This document shows positions 7,103-26,491 of a stretch of DNA of 28,222 nt, in pieces. Numbering within the stretch: position 1 is the first letter of the stretch; every line of letters starts with the position of its first letter. This DNA is from a virus. The DNA is taken from IMG/VR virus record IMGVR_UViG_3300025592_000588, positions 1 to 28,222 of that record; one strand, given 5' to 3'. Made by a program: the position numbers and the translations under genes. A model generated the notes under the pieces. That model was not told the DNA's origin. It did not search any database and was given only the letters and a program-made list of their open reading frames with translations.

Positions 7103-9910
7103 TTAGAAATTAACACTTAACCCTAAGTTAAAGTATCTTGGTGTACCAAGAAATACTTCAGCGTTATGTGCTGAGTGAGTTTTACTCCCATAGCTATTGT
7201 ATTGACTATGATCTACTGCATCTTGTACATATGTTTCGTCTAAAGCGTTAAACACATGAGCAAATAAAGATATGTCATATCCACTAACTGGTAGTAAATA
7301 TGAAGCATGTAAGTCCACCTTTGAATAAGATGGTGCTTCCCATACTTGTTCTCTGTCTGCATCTTCATCTGAACCATCGTATTCACGAGAATCAGGACTC
7401 CAATCACTATAGTTCTTATCATAAGAATTCCATAGTGCTGAAATTACTAATCCCTTTACAGGAAAAATGGTTGCACCAAGTGCATATGAAGTCTGTGGCA
7501 TATCACCAACATTCAACCCGTCAAGGGCGTATTGATAATCTGTAGTGGTTAAACCAGTTACATTACCATCATCATCATATTCATTTGATTGATACTTTCC
7601 ATGAGCATCACCATCAAACTTCCAAGTACCAAGACTTACTGCTGCATCTATACGAACCAATTTATGTAGTTGTGTAGAAGCTTCAATCTCAAGTCCTTGA
7701 TGTTTTTGTTGAATACCTGTTAAGAAAATGACATCAGTATCTCCTGAATCACCTTGTCCTGTGGTTACTGCTTTAGTAAGGTTTCTGTCTTTCCAATCTG
7801 TATTGTAAACATTTGCCTTAACAGCAAATCTTTCAGATTCGAAATTGACACCAGCTTCTGAACTAATGAAACTTTCATTATTTGGATCAGAAGCAACCGT
7901 ACCATCAAAGTAAATCACATTATCCATGATAGGTGGTTTTTCAACATATCCAATGTTAGCAAAAAGACTAACATTATCATCTATGTCGTACATTGCTCCA
8001 CCTTTGAACTGAGCAGCATAAATAGCATCAGCTTTTATTACTTCATCAGCAACTGAAAAGTGGTCTTGGTAAGAATACTTAATACTTGATAATCCACCCA
8101 TACCATATAGATTTAGATTATCTTTACTATAATTACCTTGTACAAATCCACCCAACCAATCAACGGTAGTTTCATTGTGATAAGCGATTATATCACCTAA
8201 CCCAACTCTTTTACCATCTGGTGCGTTATCATCAGCAAAATCCAAATAATAATCTCCACCTAATAAATCACGAACTTCTCGTGCGTGTTCTATACCTGCG
8301 GTTCTCCAATCAATACCTACTTGTAACTTAAACTCATCACTAATATCGTAATTAAGTTTAGAAATTACACCATAAGTATTTTGACGATTGATACTATTAC
8401 GAAGAATACCAACTGATTGATTATTATCAACACCATGTGTTCGTGTAAGAGCTGACTTATCTACATATACTACTGAATCATCTCCAGAATTATATGCTAT
8501 AAGACTATTCCAATCACGAGTCCAGGGACCACGACCATAATAAAATTTATAGTCATCATCACCAAGATTACCATCAGCATCAAATGTAGGAATCTTACCA
8601 TAAGTTCCTGTTCCACCACCAGAACCACCTGACCAATAAAAGACTGAACTTAAACTTGTCTTATCATCTATTGTCCAAAAATGATTTAGATTTACTAATG
8701 GTTTGTGAAAGTAGTTTTCTCTTTCGTTTAGATAATCACTTGCGTGTCTATCTTGTAGTCCACTATCAAAAAGTCCACCTACACCATACATATACCAGTA
8801 TTGTTTACCTTTATATGATGGGTCAACTGGTGACCAGTTTTGATTAAACTTATGTCCTACATCTGCGAACTTACCATCTTCACCAAGTGCTTCAGTATCA
8901 TATCCATCTACACTTGCAGCAAAATCAGCGTCATAAGCACCGATATTCTGTTTGTATAGATTTTGTCCATGTCGCTGTGGAGCACCGATTGCATATAATT
9001 CCAATCGATGGTCAGCATTTACTTGATAACTTGAACCAAAATAATATGCCCAAGCGTCTGTCCATGTCTTGTCAATGACACCATCACCTGTTTTACGAAC
9101 TACAGTACCACTTAGGGCGAATTTATCACCAATAAGTCCTGAATTGTAATTCAATGTGGTTTTCAGAAAACCCCCTGCACCACCTTCCTGTTTAAACTTA
9201 CCACCTTTTGAAGCGGAAGCAGGATTTGTGATTATGTTCATCGTACCACCAATTGAGGGGGCAGCCAAGTTAACGGCACTTAATCCACGCTGCATCTGGA
9301 TAGATTGAGCTGCATCTGCAACTCCATCCCAGTTAGACCAATAGACCCAACCGTTTTCCATATCGTTTTGTGGAACTCCGTTTATCATTACTGCTACATT
9401 CCTCTGATTAAACCCGCGAACATTGATACGGGCATCACCCGCACCCCCACCTTGTTGCGTAGCATATACACTTGGTGTAGTATTTAAAGACATTGGTAAG
9501 TCTTGTGAACCAAGACGAAATTCAATTTCTTCTTTACTAACTGTAGTATAAGCAACAGGTGTTTTATCATCAGCCCTTGAAGCTAAAACTTCAAGTGCAG
9601 ACATCTCAAGTGCAGATATTAAAAGTGAGAAGTCTACGGTACTAGCCGTTCCCTCTACCACTTCAACCTCTACTGTATGGGATGCATATCCAATTGAAGA
9701 AGCTTTAATTGTATAAGTTCCTGCCCCTAAATCAATAGAGTAAGCTCCATCTGCATCAGCAGATGTACCTAAATCAGTTCCTTGTACTACAATATCAGCC
9801 CCAATCAATGGGTTCTTTTCTGTATCTGTAACTGTTCCGACTACCTGCCCATATAAGAACATTGGCATCATCATTGTTAAAAATACAGATATTAGATTAT
9901 TTTTTTTCAT
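7103..9910 (-). CDS. TonB-dependent outer-membrane receptor with CarboxypepD_reg-like N-terminus
   Basis: A 935-aa outer-membrane active-transport receptor, unexpected in a phage genome. It has a signal peptide (residues 1-21, KKNN then a hydrophobic core ending FLYG), a carboxypeptidase-regulatory-like beta-sandwich (about 22-98, with GTVTD, NPLIGADIVVQGT, DADGAYSI), a plug domain (about 115-230, with INVRGFNQRNVAVMINGVP at 162-180 and GGTMNIIT at 221-228), and a long Tyr/Asp/Gly-rich beta-barrel ending in GLSVNF. The terminal Phe is typical of Bam substrates. The frame is intact and the start has GGAG 8 nt upstream. It begins 78 nt after the B12-dependent RNR on the same strand. By eye the codons look less AT-rich than those of neighbouring genes, fitting recent capture from an FCB-group host. 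The substrate cannot be read from sequence; cobalamin, siderophore or glycan are all possible. A role in superinfection exclusion is an alternative. Confidence 0.93.
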   Translation of the reverse strand: MKKNNLISVFLTMMMPMFLYGQVVGTVTDTEKNPLIGADIVVQGTDLGTSADADGAYSIDLGAGTYTIKASSIGYASHTVEVEVVEGTASTVDFSLLISALEMSALEVLASRADDKTPVAYTTVSKEEIEFRLGSQDLPMSLNTTPSVYATQQGGGAGDARINVRGFNQRNVAVMINGVPQNDMENGWVYWSNWDGVADAAQSIQMQRGLSAVNLAAPSIGGTMNIITNPASASKGGKFKQEGGAGGFLKTTLNYNSGLIGDKFALSGTVVRKTGDGVIDKTWTDAWAYYFGSSYQVNADHRLELYAIGAPQRHGQNLYKQNIGAYDADFAASVDGYDTEALGEDGKFADVGHKFNQNWSPVDPSYKGKQYWYMYGVGGLFDSGLQDRHASDYLNERENYFHKPLVNLNHFWTIDDKTSLSSVFYWSGGSGGGTGTYGKIPTFDADGNLGDDDYKFYYGRGPWTRDWNSLIAYNSGDDSVVYVDKSALTRTHGVDNNQSVGILRNSINRQNTYGVISKLNYDISDEFKLQVGIDWRTAGIEHAREVRDLLGGDYYLDFADDNAPDGKRVGLGDIIAYHNETTVDWLGGFVQGNYSKDNLNLYGMGGLSSIKYSYQDHFSVADEVIKADAIYAAQFKGGAMYDIDDNVSLFANIGYVEKPPIMDNVIYFDGTVASDPNNESFISSEAGVNFESERFAVKANVYNTDWKDRNLTKAVTTGQGDSGDTDVIFLTGIQQKHQGLEIEASTQLHKLVRIDAAVSLGTWKFDGDAHGKYQSNEYDDDGNVTGLTTTDYQYALDGLNVGDMPQTSYALGATIFPVKGLVISALWNSYDKNYSDWSPDSREYDGSDEDADREQVWEAPSYSKVDLHASYLLPVSGYDISLFAHVFNALDETYVQDAVDHSQYNSYGSKTHSAHNAEVFLGTPRYFNLGLSVNF

Positions 9911-9938
9911 TTATAATCTCCTCTGTTTGTTTGTTTGA

Positions 9939-9962
9939 GACGCATTTTTTCATAGGTGCGTC
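9939..9962 (-). promoter_or_regulatory. Hairpin in the leader of the TonB receptor gene
   Basis: GACGCA and TGCGTC form a perfect 6-bp stem around a 12-nt loop, in the 78-nt gap between RNR and the receptor. No U-tract follows on the minus strand, so it is not a standard terminator. It lies about 20 nt before the ribosome binding site and could stabilise, process or regulate the receptor message. Confidence 0.45.
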
Positions 9963-9988
9963 AACTGCCTATTCGGGTATGTGAAATC

Positions 9989-12900
9989 TTAGTTTGCATA
10001 ATCTTGATCATCGTTATCTCCACTTAATGGTTGAATCTCACATGAATCATTATTGCAAAATTTATCTATTTCAGCCTCTTCATTTTTAATTACACCAAAT
10101 GAAAGAGGTTTTAATTTTTTTAATTGTTTATTATAAGTTTTCTCATCTATTGCTTCATATGGCATTTGTTTGTAAGCTCCATAATCATGTCTTGGTAATA
10201 ATGAAATTCCTTTTAATCTATATTGAAAATAATTCAATACATATGGTAGTTCTTCAGCTTCTGTTTCAGGATTGAATGTTGCCGTACAACTAACTTGGTT
10301 ATCTGCCCAATGTCGTTGTAAGAACGCGGCTAAACTGAATTGTTCCCAAATCGAAAGTTCAGCCGCAGTTCTTATACCTTCTCCAACATCTACTGGAACA
10401 TCTACAACCATAGTTGTATTCTCCGAACCAAATGCTGGCTCTAACTTATAACCTGCTTTTTTCAATGGTTCTATTAATTCAGATTGATTTGATAATCTTA
10501 CTCTCCGAATATAGAAACGACTTTCGGGATAATGTAATCCTGGAGTTGCTCCTGCTAATAATGAAACCGTTCCACTTGGTTTAACACTTGTGGTTTTAAT
10601 TGATTTTGGTATGGCGAACCAATCAGAATATAATTTATCCCATTCTTGTATAACATCATATCCATCTTCTAACCAAGTTTTTAATTTATCTAATCCATGA
10701 TTAGTAATGAATTGTGCAACTCCACTAACACTACATCCAATTCTTCTATTTCTCAACATAACTCTATTTGTATCACTCCAATGAGTTCTACCAAGTGTTA
10801 CCGTTTTAGCATACAGATAAGCATATTTAAGTGTTCTTTGATAGTCCTCTAATGAGTCGTGATTGTTTGGAAATGTTTCTACAAGACAACAAAGTTCATA
10901 ACTTTCCAAACTTTGTTCCAGGCAATTATGGATAAACAAACCAGATGAATCTAAATATTTGTTGTCTTTTGTAGATGTTATCACACCAAAATTATGTGTA
11001 TCTTCAACAGTCATATCATAAACATCTTCATACCCATAAAACTCAACTGATACAACTTTATGATTCCAAATACCTTGATTTTCCATACTTCTTTTAACAT
11101 TAGAACAAGAATGACTGCAAGTTTTTCTTTTGGAAGCTTGATATTCTGTAAGTGTCTTATGTTCATTACATACTGGACAGTTCCAATCAACCCACGCAGT
11201 TCTTGATTTTTTTATGTCGGATAAATGTTTTTTTACTTCATTGGTCATACCATTTTTAATCGATTCAATCATAAAATCTCGTTGATTTTCCCAATTTTTA
11301 GTTGATTTTTTACCAATAGATTTTAATGCAGAATCTTTGTGATTTTTACCGTACATACCATTTCGCTCACCGTAATGACCACCATTAATACGAGTAGTTT
11401 CTTTCATCTTTTCTACATTTACAGGGTTATGCATTGGATTTTTATCTAATCTATGTAATCTACTATGTTCTGATTGAGTAATAACATCTAAATTATCCCA
11501 TGAATCATTTGTCTTATCAAAATCTATATGATGAATAGCATACTCTTTGGCGGTAGGCATATAACCAAGTTCTGATTCTGTGATTAATCTATACTGTCTT
11601 AATCCACTTGCTTTTTTCCCGGTACCTCGTATGTTTCTATAACCTTTATTACTAAAACTATTAAATGGAAATACTGATTCATCTTTTTGTAAATCTCTAA
11701 GTTCTTTATATTCACCACTTCGTAACATAATTTTATGGTCAGGTGTTGCTAATAAATTAGAACCATCATCCAAAGTAAGTTTCCACACTTCTGTATTTTC
11801 TTTTGTTTTCCAAGTTTTAATTGATTGTTTGATGACTACTTTTCCATTTTCATCAACTGAATAAACTGGGTATTGAGTATCTACTAAATCTTTAATTGGA
11901 ACTGTATTTCTACCATCAGCTACTGCTACTAATGTTTCACCAACAATACAAGGATTTCCACCCATAACTCTATGGTCTTTATTATCTCCACCATTTTGCA
12001 TACGAGAAAATTTCCTCATATTTTCTAACCAAGCTAAACCAGGTTCTCCATTATCTACGATTCGTTTTGAAACTTCTGTATAATCCATACCAAGTTCTGC
12101 AAATATACTATTGTTTGAAGTCCACCCATATTGTTCTCTGTCTGGATTAACTTTATAATTTTTTAAATCTAAATATTCATCATCATGGGGATCACCGAAC
12201 ACAATCTCTGCTGTTCGTCTTACATTCCCTGCTACGACACATTTACCAATTAGGTTCATTATATCCACAATTGTAGTTACGGTAATTAGTTCTCCACTAT
12301 TCTTTTCTAATACTTTTCTTATATCTTCGTGAACTTCTTCTAATGGGTCTGGACCACTTGAAACACCGCCAAATCCTTTGATTGGTTCTCCTAATGCTCT
12401 AATCTTTGTATAATCAAACTCTACTGGGTGTGAACCATGAAAATAACTTTCTAATAATAACCTTAACGAATCTACCCAACCTTCTCTTGTGTCTGGAATC
12501 TGAAATATTGTTGAATCCCTATCTTTATCTATACCTTTAACAAGTATTTCACCAGCACCCTTACAGTCAAATCCAACACCAACACCTAACATACTTGCAT
12601 CCATTAGAAAACAGAATGGTTTTGAGTAATCTTCTTTAAGTGTTTTAGTAGATACGAATGCACAATTATTTAGAGCTGCATATAATTTCTTTTCTTCTGT
12701 GATTGATGTTCCCATTGCCCATAAACCACGACCAGGTGGTAAAAATTTCATATTGAATATTCTATCATACATATCTTGTGCAGATTTCTGTGCTTGCCAC
12801 GGATTCCAACCTAATTGATGAGAATTAATCCAATTCCATTGCATTGAATATGTTCCCTCTACAACTCTTTGGACGGTTTCCCACCATCTCTCATTTTTTC

Positions 12901-18274: not shown

Positions 18275-19036
18275 TTATGAATTAAATAGATCATCGAAAG
18301 CATCTGATGTATCAGATACTTTAGACTTTTCCAATTCGGATGAAACAACAGTATCTACTTTAGTAGTAGATTCCTCTTCTTTTGCATCTTCTTTTGGATT
18401 CAACCATTCATTCAAAATCTCTGTCATATCATCATATGACAATTCTTGATAGATTTCTGTAATGTCCTGTTGTTTCTTTACGACCTCTAAGACTGTTGGA
18501 TCATCAGAAATAGGTGTTTGATTCGGTTTAACCCTAATGTTTGTTTTAGGGAAACTTGCACCTGTTTCTTCAGCTGATAGAAATTCTACCACGACATCAC
18601 GACCATTTACTGGGTCTGTGATATCACCATAATCTGGGTCAGCAATAATGGAAAGCAACTCTTGATAAACCGTTTTACCAAAACCCCAAAACTTCACACC
18701 TTGTGATTCTTCACCTCTAACTATTACTGGAGCAAAAGTTCTCATTTTAGCTTCCAACTTTCGAGAAAGTTGATAGTCTTCTTTACTACCACTTCCTCTT
18801 AGTTTTTGAGCAAACTCTTCAATAGGGTCTGGTCTACCAAAAGAAATTGGTGAAAGATAAGAACGGTTGTTCAAATTGTAGTGAAAGAATAACTCGATAA
18901 AAGGATTATCTTTATTAAAAGCGTAAGGTACGATTCTAATTTGTGTTTTTCCTGGTTGTGGTTTCCAAAGACTGGAAGTTCGAGTGTTTGTGGTTTGTAA
19001 CTGATTTAAGCGTTTTTTAATTGCATTTAAGTCCAT
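18275..19036 (-). CDS. 32: Single-stranded DNA-binding protein (gp32-like)
   Basis: A 253-aa protein with the gp32 layout: a basic N-terminus (LNAIKKRLNQLQ), an OB-like core with KTQIRIVPYAFNKDNPFIELFFHYN and an aromatic-rich VKFWGFGKTVYQELL, then a long acidic tail ending DAFDDLFNS that recruits partner proteins. It has no cysteines and so lacks the zinc subdomain of T4 gp32. It stands directly upstream of uvsX. The ATG has AAGGAG 8 nt upstream, and its leader holds one copy of the 18-bp promoter-like repeat. Confidence 0.9.
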   Translation of the reverse strand: MDLNAIKKRLNQLQTTNTRTSSLWKPQPGKTQIRIVPYAFNKDNPFIELFFHYNLNNRSYLSPISFGRPDPIEEFAQKLRGSGSKEDYQLSRKLEAKMRTFAPVIVRGEESQGVKFWGFGKTVYQELLSIIADPDYGDITDPVNGRDVVVEFLSAEETGASFPKTNIRVKPNQTPISDDPTVLEVVKKQQDITEIYQELSYDDMTEILNEWLNPKEDAKEEESTTKVDTVVSSELEKSKVSDTSDAFDDLFNS

Positions 19037-19093
19037 TGTTTAACTCCTTATGTATTATTATTATTTGTTATTTTTCATTTGTTAATCAAGTGT

Positions 19094-19111
19094 AACCTTG
19101 ATACAATAATA
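19094..19111 (-). repeat. 18-bp repeat copy 1, promoter-like, upstream of gp32
   Basis: AACCTTGATACAATAATA is identical to 19664-19681. Read on the minus strand (TATTATTGTATCAAGGTT) it lies about 60 nt before the gp32 ATG and downstream of the terminator of RNA unit B. Two exact copies placed upstream of two separate transcription units suggest a promoter or transcription start element of one regulatory class. Confidence 0.55.
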
Positions 19112-19137
19112 AGTATCATACCAATAGCTTAAAATGT

Positions 19138-19156
19138 GATCTATTTTAATTAGATC
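19138..19156 (-). repeat. Inverted repeat GATCTA/TAGATC after terminator
   Basis: A perfect 6-bp stem around a 7-nt AT loop, directly after the U-tract of the RNA unit B terminator on the minus strand. It may back up termination. Confidence 0.35.
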
Positions 19157-19229
19157 AAAAAAAAAAGGTTCATTTCGTTTTTAAGTCTATTATAAGTGGA
19201 AACTAAAAATCGGTGAGAACCTTTTTTTT
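19157..19229 (-). terminator. Terminator of RNA unit B (bidirectional in form)
   Basis: AAAAAAAAGGTTC and GAACCTTTTTTTT form a perfect 13-bp stem. Inside, CG-TTTTTA pairs with TAAAAA(T)CG. On the minus strand the stem is followed by T10, and on the plus strand the other arm also ends in T8, so the element can stop transcription from either side. It separates the noncoding locus from gp32. Confidence 0.7.
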
Positions 19230-19660
19230 AAATTTTGGAAATTTTAGGGAATGTAGGATTTGCATACCTACAACTTTCTGCTCAGATTTTATTGCCCTTG
19301 TACCTAACACCCACCAGTTATGGTGATTCTTCTCTGTCTGGTTAAGACTATCGAAGTGAGTACAACCTCTGTGTTATTGCCTTATCTCTCTGAGTTTAGA
19401 TTGATTCAGCCATGAAAGTAGGATTTCAGTCTTACCCTTACCTACAACAAGGTCTAAAGAATTGCTTCTTTATGTGTTCAGAAAGTACATTAGATGATTG
19501 ATGCCTCAACTACTTAACCATTCGGCCTTGTAGGTTCACCACGAACTCATCTTGGATTACCTTATGGGCTTCTAAAGTCTACCCATTATTCGGTCAATTC
19601 CATACAGAGTTAATTACTCCCTGTACTTTTCAAAATCCCAAATTGTCAAAAAACTTTTGC
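19160..19660 (-). ncRNA. Candidate structured noncoding RNA unit B (about 490 nt)
   Basis: No credible ORF exists here on either strand, but the sequence is full of stems. They include TAAAGAA-GCAA-TTCTTTA (19455-19472), a 7-bp stem capped by a GNRA tetraloop; a long-range CCTACAAGG with CCTTGTTGTAGG (19526-19534 with 19441-19452) that encloses it; CACCA-TAAC-TGGTG (19312-19325); TGTAGG/CCTACA with a 9-nt loop (19252-19272); and ATGGG/CCCAT near 19563-19585. GTAGG/CCTAC recurs five times, allowing alternative folds. The segment is GC-richer than the intergenic DNA around it. It has a promoter-like 18-bp repeat upstream and a strong terminator at its end. Size and style recall large ornate RNAs (GOLLD, ROOL, OLE), several of which occur in phages, but I cannot assign a family. 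Confidence 0.6.
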
Positions 19661-19663
19661 ATC

Positions 19664-19700
19664 AACCTTGATACAATAATATATATATATATAAAACCTC
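19664..19700 (-). promoter_or_regulatory. 18-bp repeat copy 2 with TATATA tract, likely promoter of RNA unit B
   Basis: AACCTTGATACAATAATA (19664-19681) is followed on the plus strand by a run of alternating AT. On the minus strand this reads TATATATA-TATTATTGTATCAAGG, entering RNA unit B. The identical 18-mer lies before gp32. No TTGAC -35 is seen, so this is a different promoter class from P1-P3. Confidence 0.5.
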
Positions 19701-19726
19701 AAAATACATTTTATTTTTATTTTTTT

Positions 19727-19810
19727 CAAAAAACTTTTGGTGATTCCAGAAGAAGTCGTCTGATCTGATTTCGGACTGCTAGCAGTGATTCTTAATCCTA
19801 ATCACCAAAA
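19727..19810 (-). terminator. Closing stem and U-tract of RNA unit A
   Basis: TTTTGGTGATT (minus strand 19810-19800) pairs perfectly over 11 bp with AATCACCAAAA (19745-19735), followed by GTTTTTTG. Inside are short arms GATT-AAG-AATC, ACTG-CTAG-CAGT and CAGA/TCTG, giving a multibranch junction. The U-tract after the closing stem makes it a plausible intrinsic terminator as well as an RNA domain. Confidence 0.55.
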
Positions 19811-20175
19811 ACTTGTGGTGTCGTGGTTTTCTAACGATTCAAGTCAAAAGACTACCTTTCGGTCAACACCAATTTTGTGGAAAGGTAAGGACTCGAACCT
19901 TACAGAAGCTTTCAATCGGTATAGTAGATTGATTAAATCTAACACCCTACTCACTCCACCATTATCTTGGTTGATTAATCATCTCAACCTTAACGACATA
20001 CATTCCAATTCTTTGAGATTTCAAATCGGTAGAAATCTCGAAACCACCACTTCGATTTCAAGGACTCGAAGCCCGTCCTAATTCTTGTGCCTTTACGCCC
20101 TTAGACACTTTTCAATCTTATCTCAATCTAATGAGTCGGGCTTTATCTAATTCAATCTTTATCATCCATTTCTTA
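19731..20175 (-). ncRNA. Candidate structured noncoding RNA unit A with tRNA-like T-arm
   Basis: Promoter P2 points into this roughly 440-nt segment, which has no believable protein gene. Stems seen: AAGCCCG/CGGGCTT (20143-20137 with 20075-20069), GAGATTTC/GAAATCTC with a 9-nt loop (20015-20039), GGTTGA/TCAACC (19969-19989), and GTAAGG-TTCGAGT-CCTTAC (19903-19885). The last is a 6-bp stem with a perfect tRNA T-loop consensus. A second TTCGAGTCCTT lies at 20070-20060. A full tRNA cloverleaf does not form: the acceptor partner of CCTTTCC is missing upstream, and D-arm spacing is wrong. It ends at an 11-bp stem with a U-tract. It may be a separate RNA or the 5' half of one 1-kb RNA with unit B. 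Confidence 0.55.
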
Positions 20176-20213
20176 TACTATAATATACAACATATATATG
20201 AGAAAGTCAAGCT
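20175..20213 (-). promoter_or_regulatory. Promoter P2 (sigma70-like) for the noncoding RNA locus
   Basis: Minus strand: -35 TTGACT (20210-20205), 17-nt spacer, -10 TATATT (20187-20182), with AAATAAAG upstream exactly as in P1. Transcription would start near 20175 and enter a region with no protein gene, which is the main reason to think the region makes an RNA. Confidence 0.75.
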
Positions 20214-20227
20214 TTATTTTCACTTTT

Positions 20228-20476
20228 TTAAGCTAATTCTAACATAGCAAAAGGAACATTATACAACCTACCATTCATATCAACAATAGCTCTCTTGATG
20301 TTCATCTTAGTGATAACACCAGGAGTTTTCTTTGTCTTCTGAACAACGAATACATTAGCTCCAACAGTTAGTGAAGTTTTACCCAACATAGTCTTACAAT
20401 CATTAACGAATCTTGATAATTCATTTAAATCTGATAGTTTGTCTAATTTCCTTATTTTGTTTTTTATGTTTACCAT
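20228..20476 (-). CDS. Small KOW/SH3-like protein, 82 aa
   Basis: An 82-aa protein with a helical, Lys-rich N-terminal 35 residues and a compact beta domain: VGANVFVVQKTKKTPGVI, then TKMNIKRAIVDMNGRLYNVPFAMLE. The pattern of G-x-x-V, a Pro-Gly turn, K-x-N-x-K-x-A-x-V and Y-x-V-P fits small KOW/SH3-like nucleic-acid-binding modules found in many T4-like marine phages. The ATG at 20476 has AAGG 9 nt upstream and stands about 20 nt downstream of the P3 start site, so it is the sole protein gene of that unit. Likely an early RNA- or DNA-binding regulator. Function unproven. Confidence 0.75.
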   Translation of the reverse strand: MVNIKNKIRKLDKLSDLNELSRFVNDCKTMLGKTSLTVGANVFVVQKTKKTPGVITKMNIKRAIVDMNGRLYNVPFAMLELA

Positions 20477-20494
20477 ATTTATAACCTTTTATTT

Positions 20495-20534
20495 ATACCT
20501 AAATATAACACTAAATGCCTATATAAGTCAAGCA
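20495..20534 (-). promoter_or_regulatory. Promoter P3 (sigma70-like) for the 82-aa gene
   Basis: Minus strand: -35 TTGACT (20531-20526), 18-nt spacer, -10 TATATT (20507-20502). The GCTTGACTT core is shared with P1 and P2. It follows the weak terminator at the end of the large upstream operon. Confidence 0.75.
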
Positions 20535-20614
20535 CTTTTTTACTTATTTTGTCCTAATTCTAATAATTCTCTAAAATTATCTATTTGGTGTAGTTGGTGT
20601 AAATGAATTCTCAT

Positions 20615-20637
20615 ATTAATATTATAAAAAAAACCTA
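20615..20637 (-). terminator. Weak terminator at the end of the thyX-to-113-aa operon
   Basis: CCTA-TTAT-TAGG followed by T8, overlapping the last codons of the 113-aa gene. The stem is only 4 bp, but the U-tract is good and promoter P3 follows, which fits an operon end. Confidence 0.4.
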
Positions 20638-20963
20638 ATAATAGGAAATATACCCCATACTACGATACATATTTTTAATAACCAAACAGCTGTTATTATT
20701 GGGGCCATAAAATAAATTCTTACTAATAAAGCCAATACCATTTTAAATCCCATATTCCAATCACGCAAAGGCCATGTGTGTTCATAATAAAGTACTTTTG
20801 GATACCATTGATCATTATATACAATATCCTTATCTTCATCATATGTTTCAAAATGAGTAAATGGCCAATCTTTTGTATATATTTTTTTCCAATGTCCTTT
20901 AGGCCAAGTTACTCTACGATATACCGTATCTGGTGTCTTAGGTAAAGAATCAACCCAACCCAT
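20622..20963 (-). CDS. Trp-rich membrane protein, 113 aa
   Basis: The N-terminal 70 residues are hydrophilic and rich in Trp, Tyr and Asp (WPKGHWKKIYTKDWPF, DQWYPKVLYYEHTWP). The last 40 hold one long or two short membrane segments (MGFKMVLALLVRIYFMAPIITAVW and LLKICIVVWGIFPIIRFF). The ATG is 1 nt after the stop of the lipoprotein gene. No family recognised. Possible roles are a holin-like or envelope-modifying protein; the Trp-rich part would sit at the membrane surface. Confidence 0.65.
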   Translation of the reverse strand: MGWVDSLPKTPDTVYRRVTWPKGHWKKIYTKDWPFTHFETYDEDKDIVYNDQWYPKVLYYEHTWPLRDWNMGFKMVLALLVRIYFMAPIITAVWLLKICIVVWGIFPIIRFFL

Positions 20964-24346: not shown

Positions 24347-25604
24347 TAAATTTCTCTGTTATGTCTCGCATCTCATGATAGTTATCTCCCATTGATACTT
24401 TAGTTGGATATTTACCATCTTGTTCTAATATACCCTTTACTTTCTTTAGATAATCTAACCCATCTTCCTTATCAAAGTCAAGCAAAAAAGAATCGTAATT
24501 ATACAACACTAATCTACTAGCATACTCTCCATTCTCTATCTCTGGTAATAGAGTATTTAAAATCCTAATGTTATTTTCTGTTTCTAACAATTGTACTTTA
24601 TAATTAAATACTTTATTCGGATTCATAGATTGCATATTTTTCCTGTATATTTTCCGATAATAAATATCTGATTCTATGAAATCCTGTCTTTTATATACAC
24701 CCCACAAGTCCTTTATATACTCGTCTACCATACCAAAGAACGGGTTTTCTTTCATTTCAGTAGTTATACCACCATATAAATACTTGAAAGTTAATGATTT
24801 TCCTTCATCATAACTCAATCCATATGTTTTTGCTAAGTGTTCATGTGCCGAACCATTCGGGAATTCATAACCAATTAAATCTCCAATCAATCGTGGATGG
24901 TATGCATCAAAATCAAACTCAACCAATACTCCACCTTTATGTCTACTGATAAATTGTTTTCTACTTCCGTCTGATTTATTCAGAGCTGCGAAGTTCATAC
25001 CACCAAACCTATTACTTGGTCTACCCGTTGATGTATAGGGATTATATTCACTAAAAACCATACTATCTGTGGTTTTTATTCCATTCTTTTCTATTTTTAA
25101 TAAAACTTCCAAGATAGTTTGGTCATAATCTTTTTCAAAATTTCTAATTAAGTCTTCTGATAAATTACTAAAGTATTCGGCATGTTTTACTAATGGAATA
25201 ACATCATTTACATTTTCTTTCTCATAATGTAATCTATAATTATGATGATGTGCATTTGTTAAATGTTTATCAAAATCATATGGTTCATTTGTTTTCATAT
25301 AATGACACCAATTCAAATCATATACTTCTGTTGAATTTATCATTGAACAATGTTTATAAGATTTTAAATCAGATACAAGTATTGCTGAACTTGTATTCCA
25401 ATATAGTGTATCTTCTGAAAACCTTTCATTATGATGAACTGGTATAATATATTCATTCTGTAAAGTTCTAATATAATAACACGATACACGATTCTCTTTT
25501 GGATGTTTATTCACATCGGAATACATTTGTAAATATATAAGTGGTTGTTTCCGAATCTTCTTAAAAGTATCGGACAACTTTTCCATTGTGTTAATTATTA
25601 TCAT
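24339..25604 (-). CDS. Family A DNA polymerase-like protein with altered steric gate
   Basis: A 421-aa protein with the palm and fingers of family A polymerases and no obvious active exonuclease. TSTGRPSNRFGGMNFAALNK (191-210) matches the TSTGRLSS template-binding stretch. Motif A is VEFDFDAYHPRL (catalytic D231). Motif B is K269-x3-F273-x3-YG, exactly the spacing of the O-helix. Motif C is LYNYDSFLL (D371). In E. coli Pol I numbering the sugar-selecting Glu710 is His236, and the His before the motif C Asp is Tyr. The phage also has a complete family B polymerase, so this is an additional enzyme. Possible jobs are primer synthesis, lesion bypass or terminal transfer; the fold is well supported and the role is not. 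It overlaps the ATP-grasp gene by ATGA. Confidence 0.82.
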   Translation of the reverse strand: MIIINTMEKLSDTFKKIRKQPLIYLQMYSDVNKHPKENRVSCYYIRTLQNEYIIPVHHNERFSEDTLYWNTSSAILVSDLKSYKHCSMINSTEVYDLNWCHYMKTNEPYDFDKHLTNAHHHNYRLHYEKENVNDVIPLVKHAEYFSNLSEDLIRNFEKDYDQTILEVLLKIEKNGIKTTDSMVFSEYNPYTSTGRPSNRFGGMNFAALNKSDGSRKQFISRHKGGVLVEFDFDAYHPRLIGDLIGYEFPNGSAHEHLAKTYGLSYDEGKSLTFKYLYGGITTEMKENPFFGMVDEYIKDLWGVYKRQDFIESDIYYRKIYRKNMQSMNPNKVFNYKVQLLETENNIRILNTLLPEIENGEYASRLVLYNYDSFLLDFDKEDGLDYLKKVKGILEQDGKYPTKVSMGDNYHEMRDITEKFNV

Positions 25605-26491
25605 TGACCTATTTTGTGTTTAACATAAGTAACTATTTGTTCTGCAATATTTGTTTTACAATATTTATCCATTCCCTCAAATCCTGGTGAAGAATTAACC
25701 TCACATATACTATACGAATCCCCATCAAATAACAAGTCCACTCCTGCTATATCCAAACCAAGTAATCTTGCAGATTCACCACCCAACCATTCTATATCTG
25801 CATCAATTTGATATGGAATACCTTCACCACCTCTTGTGATATTAGCTCTGAAATCACCATCTACTGATTGTCTCATCATACAACCAACAACTTTACCATT
25901 GACAACAAGCACTCTCAAATCTTTACCATGAGAATCTTTAATAAATTCTTGAATGATAATATTGTAACTTGGTTTCGTTATCTCTGCCATTTTCAATAAT
26001 TGTTGTAATTGGTTTCTATTCTCACACAGAAATACACCTGCTCCAAAAGAACCACTAAGAGTTTTTATAATTGCAGGATATCCTATGTTCTTTTCTACAA
26101 ATTCTACATTAATTGGGTGTTTAACCAATAGTGTTTTTGGTACTGGTAGATTTGATTGTCCTAATACTTGTTGTGTGTATAACTTATCTTTAACATTATC
26201 TATCGAATCACTACCATTAATAAGTATCACTCCCAACCGCTCTAAATGTCGAATAATTGCTTTAATAAAGTAAGTTGTTCCACTACCTGTTCGTGGTATT
26301 ACAAAATCTGGAAGTGTTCTCGCCTTACCATCAACCAAAATACTTTTCCTATCATCTCTATCTACAAAAATATCTACAGCGTCTGGGTGCACTACTCGAA
26401 CCTTAATTTCTTGTTTCTCAAATTCTTCTATAAGTTTTTGAGTTTCCCAAGACTCTTCTATAGGATTTTTATATAATATCCAACCGTTCAT
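25601..26491 (-). CDS. RimK-like ATP-grasp ligase
   Basis: A 296-aa ATP-grasp enzyme that joins an amine to a carboxylate through an acylphosphate. Visible features: KDKLYTQQVLGQSNLPVPKT (101-120), the flexible nucleotide loop IGYPAIIKTLSGSFGAGVFL (136-155; K143), IIQEFI (179-184), KDLRVLVVNGKVVGCMMR (190-207), and the metal/ATP site ICEVNSSPGFEGMD (262-275; E264, N266). Closest in style to RimK, which adds glutamate to ribosomal protein S6, and to related peptide or coenzyme glutamate ligases. In a phage it could modify a host ribosomal or other protein, or build a peptide-like cofactor. It overlaps both neighbours by ATGA. Confidence 0.88.
   Translation of the reverse strand: MNGWILYKNPIEESWETQKLIEEFEKQEIKVRVVHPDAVDIFVDRDDRKSILVDGKARTLPDFVIPRTGSGTTYFIKAIIRHLERLGVILINGSDSIDNVKDKLYTQQVLGQSNLPVPKTLLVKHPINVEFVEKNIGYPAIIKTLSGSFGAGVFLCENRNQLQQLLKMAEITKPSYNIIIQEFIKDSHGKDLRVLVVNGKVVGCMMRQSVDGDFRANITRGGEGIPYQIDADIEWLGGESARLLGLDIAGVDLLFDGDSYSICEVNSSPGFEGMDKYCKTNIAEQIVTYVKHKIGQ

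Follow-up and report, generated by a model that had tools for sequence, protein, structure and literature searches.

The non-coding locus upstream of gp32

The question raised by the viral sequence analyzed here (IMG/VR record IMGVR_UViG_3300025592_000588, 28,222 nt, hereafter the window) is what is encoded on the minus strand upstream of its gene for a gp32-type ssDNA-binding protein, and whether this amounts to one RNA or more. An earlier, sequence-only reading had proposed a coding gap at 19037-20227 that begins at a TTGACT/TATATT promoter and holds a single 1-kb ornate RNA resembling GOLLD and ROOL. The gap holds: the ORF listing of the window contains no minus-strand ORF of at least 50 aa between these positions. 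A minus-strand structured non-coding RNA beside gp32 is likewise upheld, with comparative covariation far above chance and the gp32 gene recognized by PF08804. The minus strand at 19037-20227 is confirmed as a locus of structured non-coding RNA, consisting of two adjacent units, a module array and a double manA RNA, instead of one RNA. In minus-strand order, the main features are:

20182-20210, minus strand: sigma-70-like promoter of unit 1, TTGACT-17-TATATT (consensus scan, 10 of 12 matches)
20141-19736, minus strand: unit 1, a module array of H-type pseudoknots, a tRNA-like T-arm and hairpins, behind the sigma-70-like promoter
19664-19712, minus strand: probable promoter of unit 2 (AAAATGTATTTTG ... 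TATTATTGTATCAAGGTT), marked by a repeated 18-mer
19243-19628, minus strand: unit 2, a composite double manA RNA (386 nt, alignment A1)
19160-19233, minus strand: intrinsic terminator with the conserved apical part TTTTTAGTTTCCAC (compensatory stem replacement, T run)
18275-19036, minus strand: gp32-type ssDNA-binding protein gene, next downstream (Pfam PF08804, 1.7e-13; PHROG 1192)

The proposed promoter is present at 20210-20182, and in other phages the same TTGACT..TATATT block is found 5' of alpha, the first element of the array. Promoter-like matches in a scan of the window numbered 13 against a chance mean of 8.6, which is only mildly above chance. The 18-mer TATTATTGTATCAAGGTT has exactly two copies in the window, one before the double manA and one before gp32 (19111-19094), against a chance mean of 0.14 with up to three mismatches allowed. 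The box upstream of it shows parallel changes at both sites in relatives (e.g. L009 and L107), and the two candidate sites behave as promoters of one class would. Single-sequence folding energies gave weak evidence of structure (z of -1.96 and -1.46) and the single-sequence minimum free energy fold lacked the covarying closing helix described below; covariation was therefore used as the main evidence. Covarying stems were sought among homologues, and the outcome favours structure. Comparative analysis of this kind demonstrates the predicted anatomy of the locus together with selection on its structure.

Relatives and family searches

A gp32 query yielded 80 related IMG/VR contigs, and further contigs were added through pattern searches for conserved parts. 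Where gp32 exceeds about 80% identity, many contigs have a long non-coding stretch before the gene; near 70% identity, most have only ~100 nt there. manA scored over threshold in 16 of the 40 loci scanned, in all 16 cases upstream of gp32. The alpha pattern in two bacterial MAGs was not counted (L139 looks coding and L138 is cut by the locus end), and matches to TGACCGAAAGGTAGTC in L085, L087 and L090 were set aside as chance, lying in unrelated, apparently coding DNA.

At the gathering score, Rfam returned exactly one match, to manA (RF01745) at 19428-19248 on the minus strand (63 bits, gathering score 55.2). A relaxed search of 19000-20650 with all 4227 families at E ≤ 5 added a second manA match directly upstream (19625-19446; 18.8 bits, E 0.039 over 4227 families) and nothing credible besides manA. 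GOLLD, ROOL, OLE, HEARO and the group I intron gave no covariance-model match in 19000-20650 at E ≤ 5. For tmRNA, the locus gave no Rfam match, no ARAGORN call and no tag, and neither ARAGORN nor Rfam accepted a tRNA cloverleaf in it. None of the Rfam families matches the alpha or gamma/beta modules. When the array and its sister arrays were compared by BLAST with 50,697 phage records, no meaningful match came up, the short ones being near-threshold and unrelated, and none of the cultured phages in the collection searched carries the array.

A single ornate RNA of about 1 kb would fit the length, branching and phage context of the locus, which shares with GOLLD and ROOL the character of a large non-coding stretch in a phage. 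The likeness first suggested was not borne out, however, for either family: no Rfam match appeared even at E ≤ 5, nor any match in sequence or structure, and the locus is modular and separable. The double manA occurs without the array in L006, L009 and L016, and array modules occur without manA nearby in L117, L134 and L136. Because the two units separate in evolution, one large RNA of this kind is very improbable indeed, and we treat the locus as two units in what follows.

A double manA RNA under one closing helix

Unit 2 contains two manA cores, with the following parts:

19418-19625, minus strand: manA core A, including its 5' hairpin and the terminal one (Rfam, 18.8 bits in the window)
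19248-19428, minus strand: manA core B, Rfam extent (63 bits against a gathering score of 55.2)
19597-19601, minus strand: closing helix, 5' strand GGAAU, before core A; pairs with 19252-19248
19248-19252, minus strand: closing helix, 3' strand AUUCC, after core B; pairs with 19597-19601
19389-19394, minus strand: core B pseudoknot, loop strand CTCAGA; pairs with 19286-19281
19281-19286, minus strand: core B pseudoknot, strand TCTGAG; pairs with 19389-19394

Tandem manA cores at a spacing of 181-193 nt were aligned from 26 distinct relatives (alignment A1), and 18 helices, one pseudoknot among them, were drawn by hand, partly from the Rfam structure and partly from A1. Over the 79 pairs of this structure, 97.5% of the cells in A1 are paired, and two-sided changes are seen in 52 of the 79; none of 500 shuffles came as high, and slid controls were 35-45% paired. 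The covariation score is 0.51, compared with 0.20 for shuffled and 0.07-0.11 for slid controls; the slid control is somewhat favourable because the structure was drawn in part from the same alignment, and the margin is very large. Core A scores low in the window; for the equivalent copies in other phages, Rfam's own model gives 39.9, 37 and 28.4 bits (E 2e-10 to 5e-7). These scores fall short of the gathering score but speak for core A as a manA relative.

In all 26 rows the closing helix is completely paired. Two of its pairs covary, and no other column window equals it, the runner-up reaching 21 of 26. Its variants (GGGAU/AUCCC, GGAAU/AUUCC and GGGGU/ACCCC) retain pairing, and the 216-kb contig behind L132 also carries a tandem manA, with GGGGT/ACCCC. 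An outer helix belonging to each copy (model positions 18-22 with 184-188) was not found: the Rfam alignment from cmscan leaves both closing strands of core B empty, and the closing helix joins the 5' side of A to the 3' side of B. One outer helix around both cores in all 26 rows argues for one composite RNA, a variant of manA in which the two cores are predicted to fold as a single object of ~386 nt. The core B pseudoknot, which the printed Rfam model lacks, likewise pairs in every one of the 26 rows and has two covarying pairs.

In hairpin order, in the GACYGAAUAA..UAAGGU core and in the terminal GGUA..AAUCC hairpin, unit 2 agrees with RF01745; it differs in having two tandem cores under one closing helix and a dedicated terminator after them. 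The manA of cyanophage S-CREM1 is single, with its own closing helix, whereas that of the window is double. The composite form with a common closing helix was not described in the literature searched, which left out most subscription journals and supplements. While manA itself is already known, the predicted two-core form under one closing helix would be new.

Terminator, downstream genes and cis-regulation

The proposal that the locus ends in hairpins with U-tracts proved sound at 19233-19160, where a covarying stem is followed by at least seven T. Among ~30 distinct relatives the outer stem is replaced wholesale with full complementarity; stem and T run are those of an intrinsic terminator, with the pairing conserved rather than the sequence. 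A terminator scan missed it because its apical part is long.

This terminator stands between the double manA and gp32, as it would if unit 2 were a tandem riboswitch or other cis-regulator acting through it on gp32 or whichever gene comes next. manA has been a riboswitch candidate since it was proposed in 2010; Rfam lists it as cis-regulatory, and according to its discoverers it commonly lies in potential 5' UTRs, that of ibpA (Hsp20) included (PMC2864571). The double manA is close upstream of gp32 in most relatives found, although the search that brought in many of them started from gp32, and it precedes an Hsp20 gene in L145. However, a conserved antiterminator, pairing the terminator arm with upstream RNA, was looked for in relatives and none was found, and the terminator stem changes freely. 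Nor is the next gene downstream constant where the RNA and terminator are kept: the window has gp32 in this place, L102, L103 and L112 have a methyltransferase-like gene, and L147 encodes a 703-aa protein. In the window, a separate promoter-like site for gp32 follows the terminator. In S-CREM1, whose tRNA array has been described (PMC9964418), manA at 10215-10429 sits between a tRNA-Leu ending at 10213 and a tRNA-Asn starting at 10429. No paper settling the function of manA was found in the literature searched. The terminator, the changing downstream genes, the paired promoter-like sites and the S-CREM1 context favour a free-standing RNA, and regulation is also compatible with them. Cis-regulation by unit 2 appears unlikely to us, without being negligible, and a free-standing double manA RNA is the more likely of the two when set against a gp32 switch.

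The module array

Upstream of the double manA RNA, unit 1 is a chain of small structured elements:

20085-20141, minus strand: alpha, first array element, an H-type pseudoknot (GCCC:GGGC and GTGTC:GGCAC) whose loop 1 contains a hairpin (covariation)
20050-20079, minus strand: second H-type pseudoknot (AGGAC:GTCCT and CTTCGA:TCGAAG), between alpha and gamma (inspection)
20015-20047, minus strand: gamma, an H-type pseudoknot (GTGG:CTAC and GAGATTTC:GAAATCTC) (covariation)
19877-19959, minus strand: tRNA-like unit with acceptor-like stem GTGGAG:TTTCCAC and T-arm GTAAGG-TTCGAGT-CCTTAC at 19903-19885 (sequence)
19813-19872, minus strand: delta, stem GGTGT:ACACC and GNRA hairpin ACC-GAAA-GGT (kept as a unit)
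19736-19809, minus strand: epsilon, long hairpin GGTGATT:AATCACC followed by a T run, a possible end of unit 1 (inspection)

Across 13 distinct sequences, 98.8% of the cells of alpha are paired, with two-sided changes in six pairs; the second stem covaries and the first is invariant. Gamma and the related beta belong to one family of pseudoknots, in which 18 distinct sequences have 93.4% of their cells paired; covariation is strong in the second stem, and the first has one compensatory change. Because the first stems of alpha and gamma formed part of the search patterns, only the second stems count as independent evidence. The pseudoknot at 20079-20050 takes the same fold with GAGAC:GTCTC, two compensatory changes, in L126, L127 and L131. 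The closing stem of epsilon is different yet complementary in L002, L123, L117, L112, L059 and L126. Delta, in which the GNRA hairpin expected from the sequence was located, is kept as a unit in L002, L089, L092, L093 and L094 and missing from L096, with little covariation. The tRNA-like unit occurs only in the window and near-identical kin, whose copies lack variation, and so shows almost no covariation. Of two T-loops proposed earlier, that at 19903-19885 is a real T-arm-like hairpin, and the other is better explained by the H-type pseudoknot at 20079-20050, within which it falls.

Among near relatives the modules are reshuffled, and their presence, copy number and order vary: L002 contains one gamma but two betas, L092 places beta/gamma modules after delta, and L096 is without delta and epsilon. 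In other phages the same modules occur away from manA and gp32. Real tRNAs lie beside modules in contigs L112, L126, L127 and L131, and sister arrays carry tRNA-Gly or tRNA-Pro. In three of four complete phage tmRNAs, the pseudoknot nearest the 3' end is of the gamma type; one of the three belongs to the 120-kb contig on which L016 lies, closely related to the window phage. Alpha is built like tmRNA PK1, with a GUAAA loop. The array differs from tmRNA (RF00023), with which it shares gamma, in having no tag reading frame and no tRNA-like closing domain around it.

These links to tRNA and tmRNA, with the T-arm-like unit, would also suit a functionless relic of a decayed tRNA cluster or tmRNA gene. 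Against this, ARAGORN and Rfam detected no tmRNA, tag or tRNA in the locus, the same modules recur in many phages, and in diverse phages compensatory changes preserve the pairing of the alpha and gamma stems. Because the stems are preserved in this way, we consider it quite improbable that unit 1, here taken as a set of maintained modules, is such a relic.

Several further elements were seen in and around these arrays. The related marine phages L141, L142, L143 and L144 carry complete tmRNAs (60-94 bits), the tag frame of which appears to end in ...YAYA in three and ...YAYAA in L142. After the pseudoknots, sister arrays contain a conserved non-coding element of ~240 nt (AGAGTTCTRAACCCGTTARGTCG ... 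GGTAACTTCCTTTCCGA ... TGTACATSGTAGCTC) that has no Rfam match, found in L126 at about 910-1150 and in L112 and L133 (minus strand). In L133 and L136, alpha is followed by long tRNA-like elements with a T-arm and acceptor-like ends, in which ARAGORN accepted no cloverleaf. Just before the array in the window, an 82-aa protein with no Pfam or PHROG match is encoded at 20228-20476 (minus strand). In L117, L120 and L124, at a different place in the genome, the same protein immediately precedes an array of beta modules; it might be an RNA-binding partner. Among the upstream genes is a RimK-like ATP-grasp ligase at 25601-26491 (minus strand; Pfam PF08443, 2.8e-51).

Comparison with phage tRNA arrays and the T4 gene 32 leader

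RNA C and RNA D of T4 are stable RNAs in a phage tRNA array, and the array of S-CREM1 likewise holds wcaG, manA and abiF RNAs in addition to tRNAs. Unit 1 resembles both as a tandem of small RNAs in a non-coding stretch, and differs in having no true tRNA and in consisting mainly of pseudoknots and hairpins. In the stretch L140 1246-1930 (S-CREM1 9745-10429), the wcaG RNA, which is in the same S-CREM1 tRNA array as manA, has two H-type pseudoknot-like parts built much like gamma.

The pseudoknot of T4 gene 32 mRNA, inside the gp32 leader, serves autoregulation, and the window likewise has pseudoknots upstream of gp32. A T4-like autoregulation site in the array was rejected because the array lies before the terminator and occurs away from gp32 in other phages. 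The gp32 leader itself offers a better parallel at 19102-19081 (minus strand), where a conserved hairpin, ATCAAG-GTTACA-CTTGAT, has in its loop a GTTA that might base-pair with the TAAC that comes next, an H-type pseudoknot candidate like the T4 site. An A-rich leader follows, and no compensatory changes were seen in relatives.

A proposed system of stable phage RNAs

We think it rather probable, from the comparative sequence evidence, that the locus comprises two non-coding units that are both released as stable, trans-acting RNAs. Transcription itself we infer, and with it the separateness of the transcripts, their early timing, their stability and their action in trans. Unit 1 would probably be an early polycistronic non-coding transcript from the sigma-70-like promoter, a chain of individually folded modules gained and lost as cassettes. 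Its 5' part would consist of the alpha pseudoknot, which may protect that end; any processing into separate RNAs is conjectural. Unit 2, the composite manA RNA, would be separate from it, with a promoter-like element and a dedicated terminator to itself. Both RNAs would be trans-acting; during infection they would most likely bind a protein or ribosome-associated factor, and they would belong to the same repertoire as phage tRNAs and phage tmRNA.

The cassettes are unmatched in Rfam and in the cultured phages searched. Compensatory mutation has nonetheless preserved their stems, and phage tmRNA contains one of the cassettes; they point to a set of phage RNAs for which no assay was found in the literature searched. 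There is a chance that the array system is something new. It is possible, and we hold this more tentatively than the two-unit reading, that stable non-coding RNAs form a modular system in marine phages. Alpha would open it, its exchangeable cassettes, pseudoknots and tRNA-like elements, would be shared with the tmRNA of these phages, and a trans-acting two-core manA would be included. With two cores in one helix, a terminator of its own and interchangeable downstream genes, the label of cis-regulator may be wrong for manA, and this is now testable. If the modular trans-acting system is real, manA in general would be a trans-acting RNA of phages and not a riboswitch.
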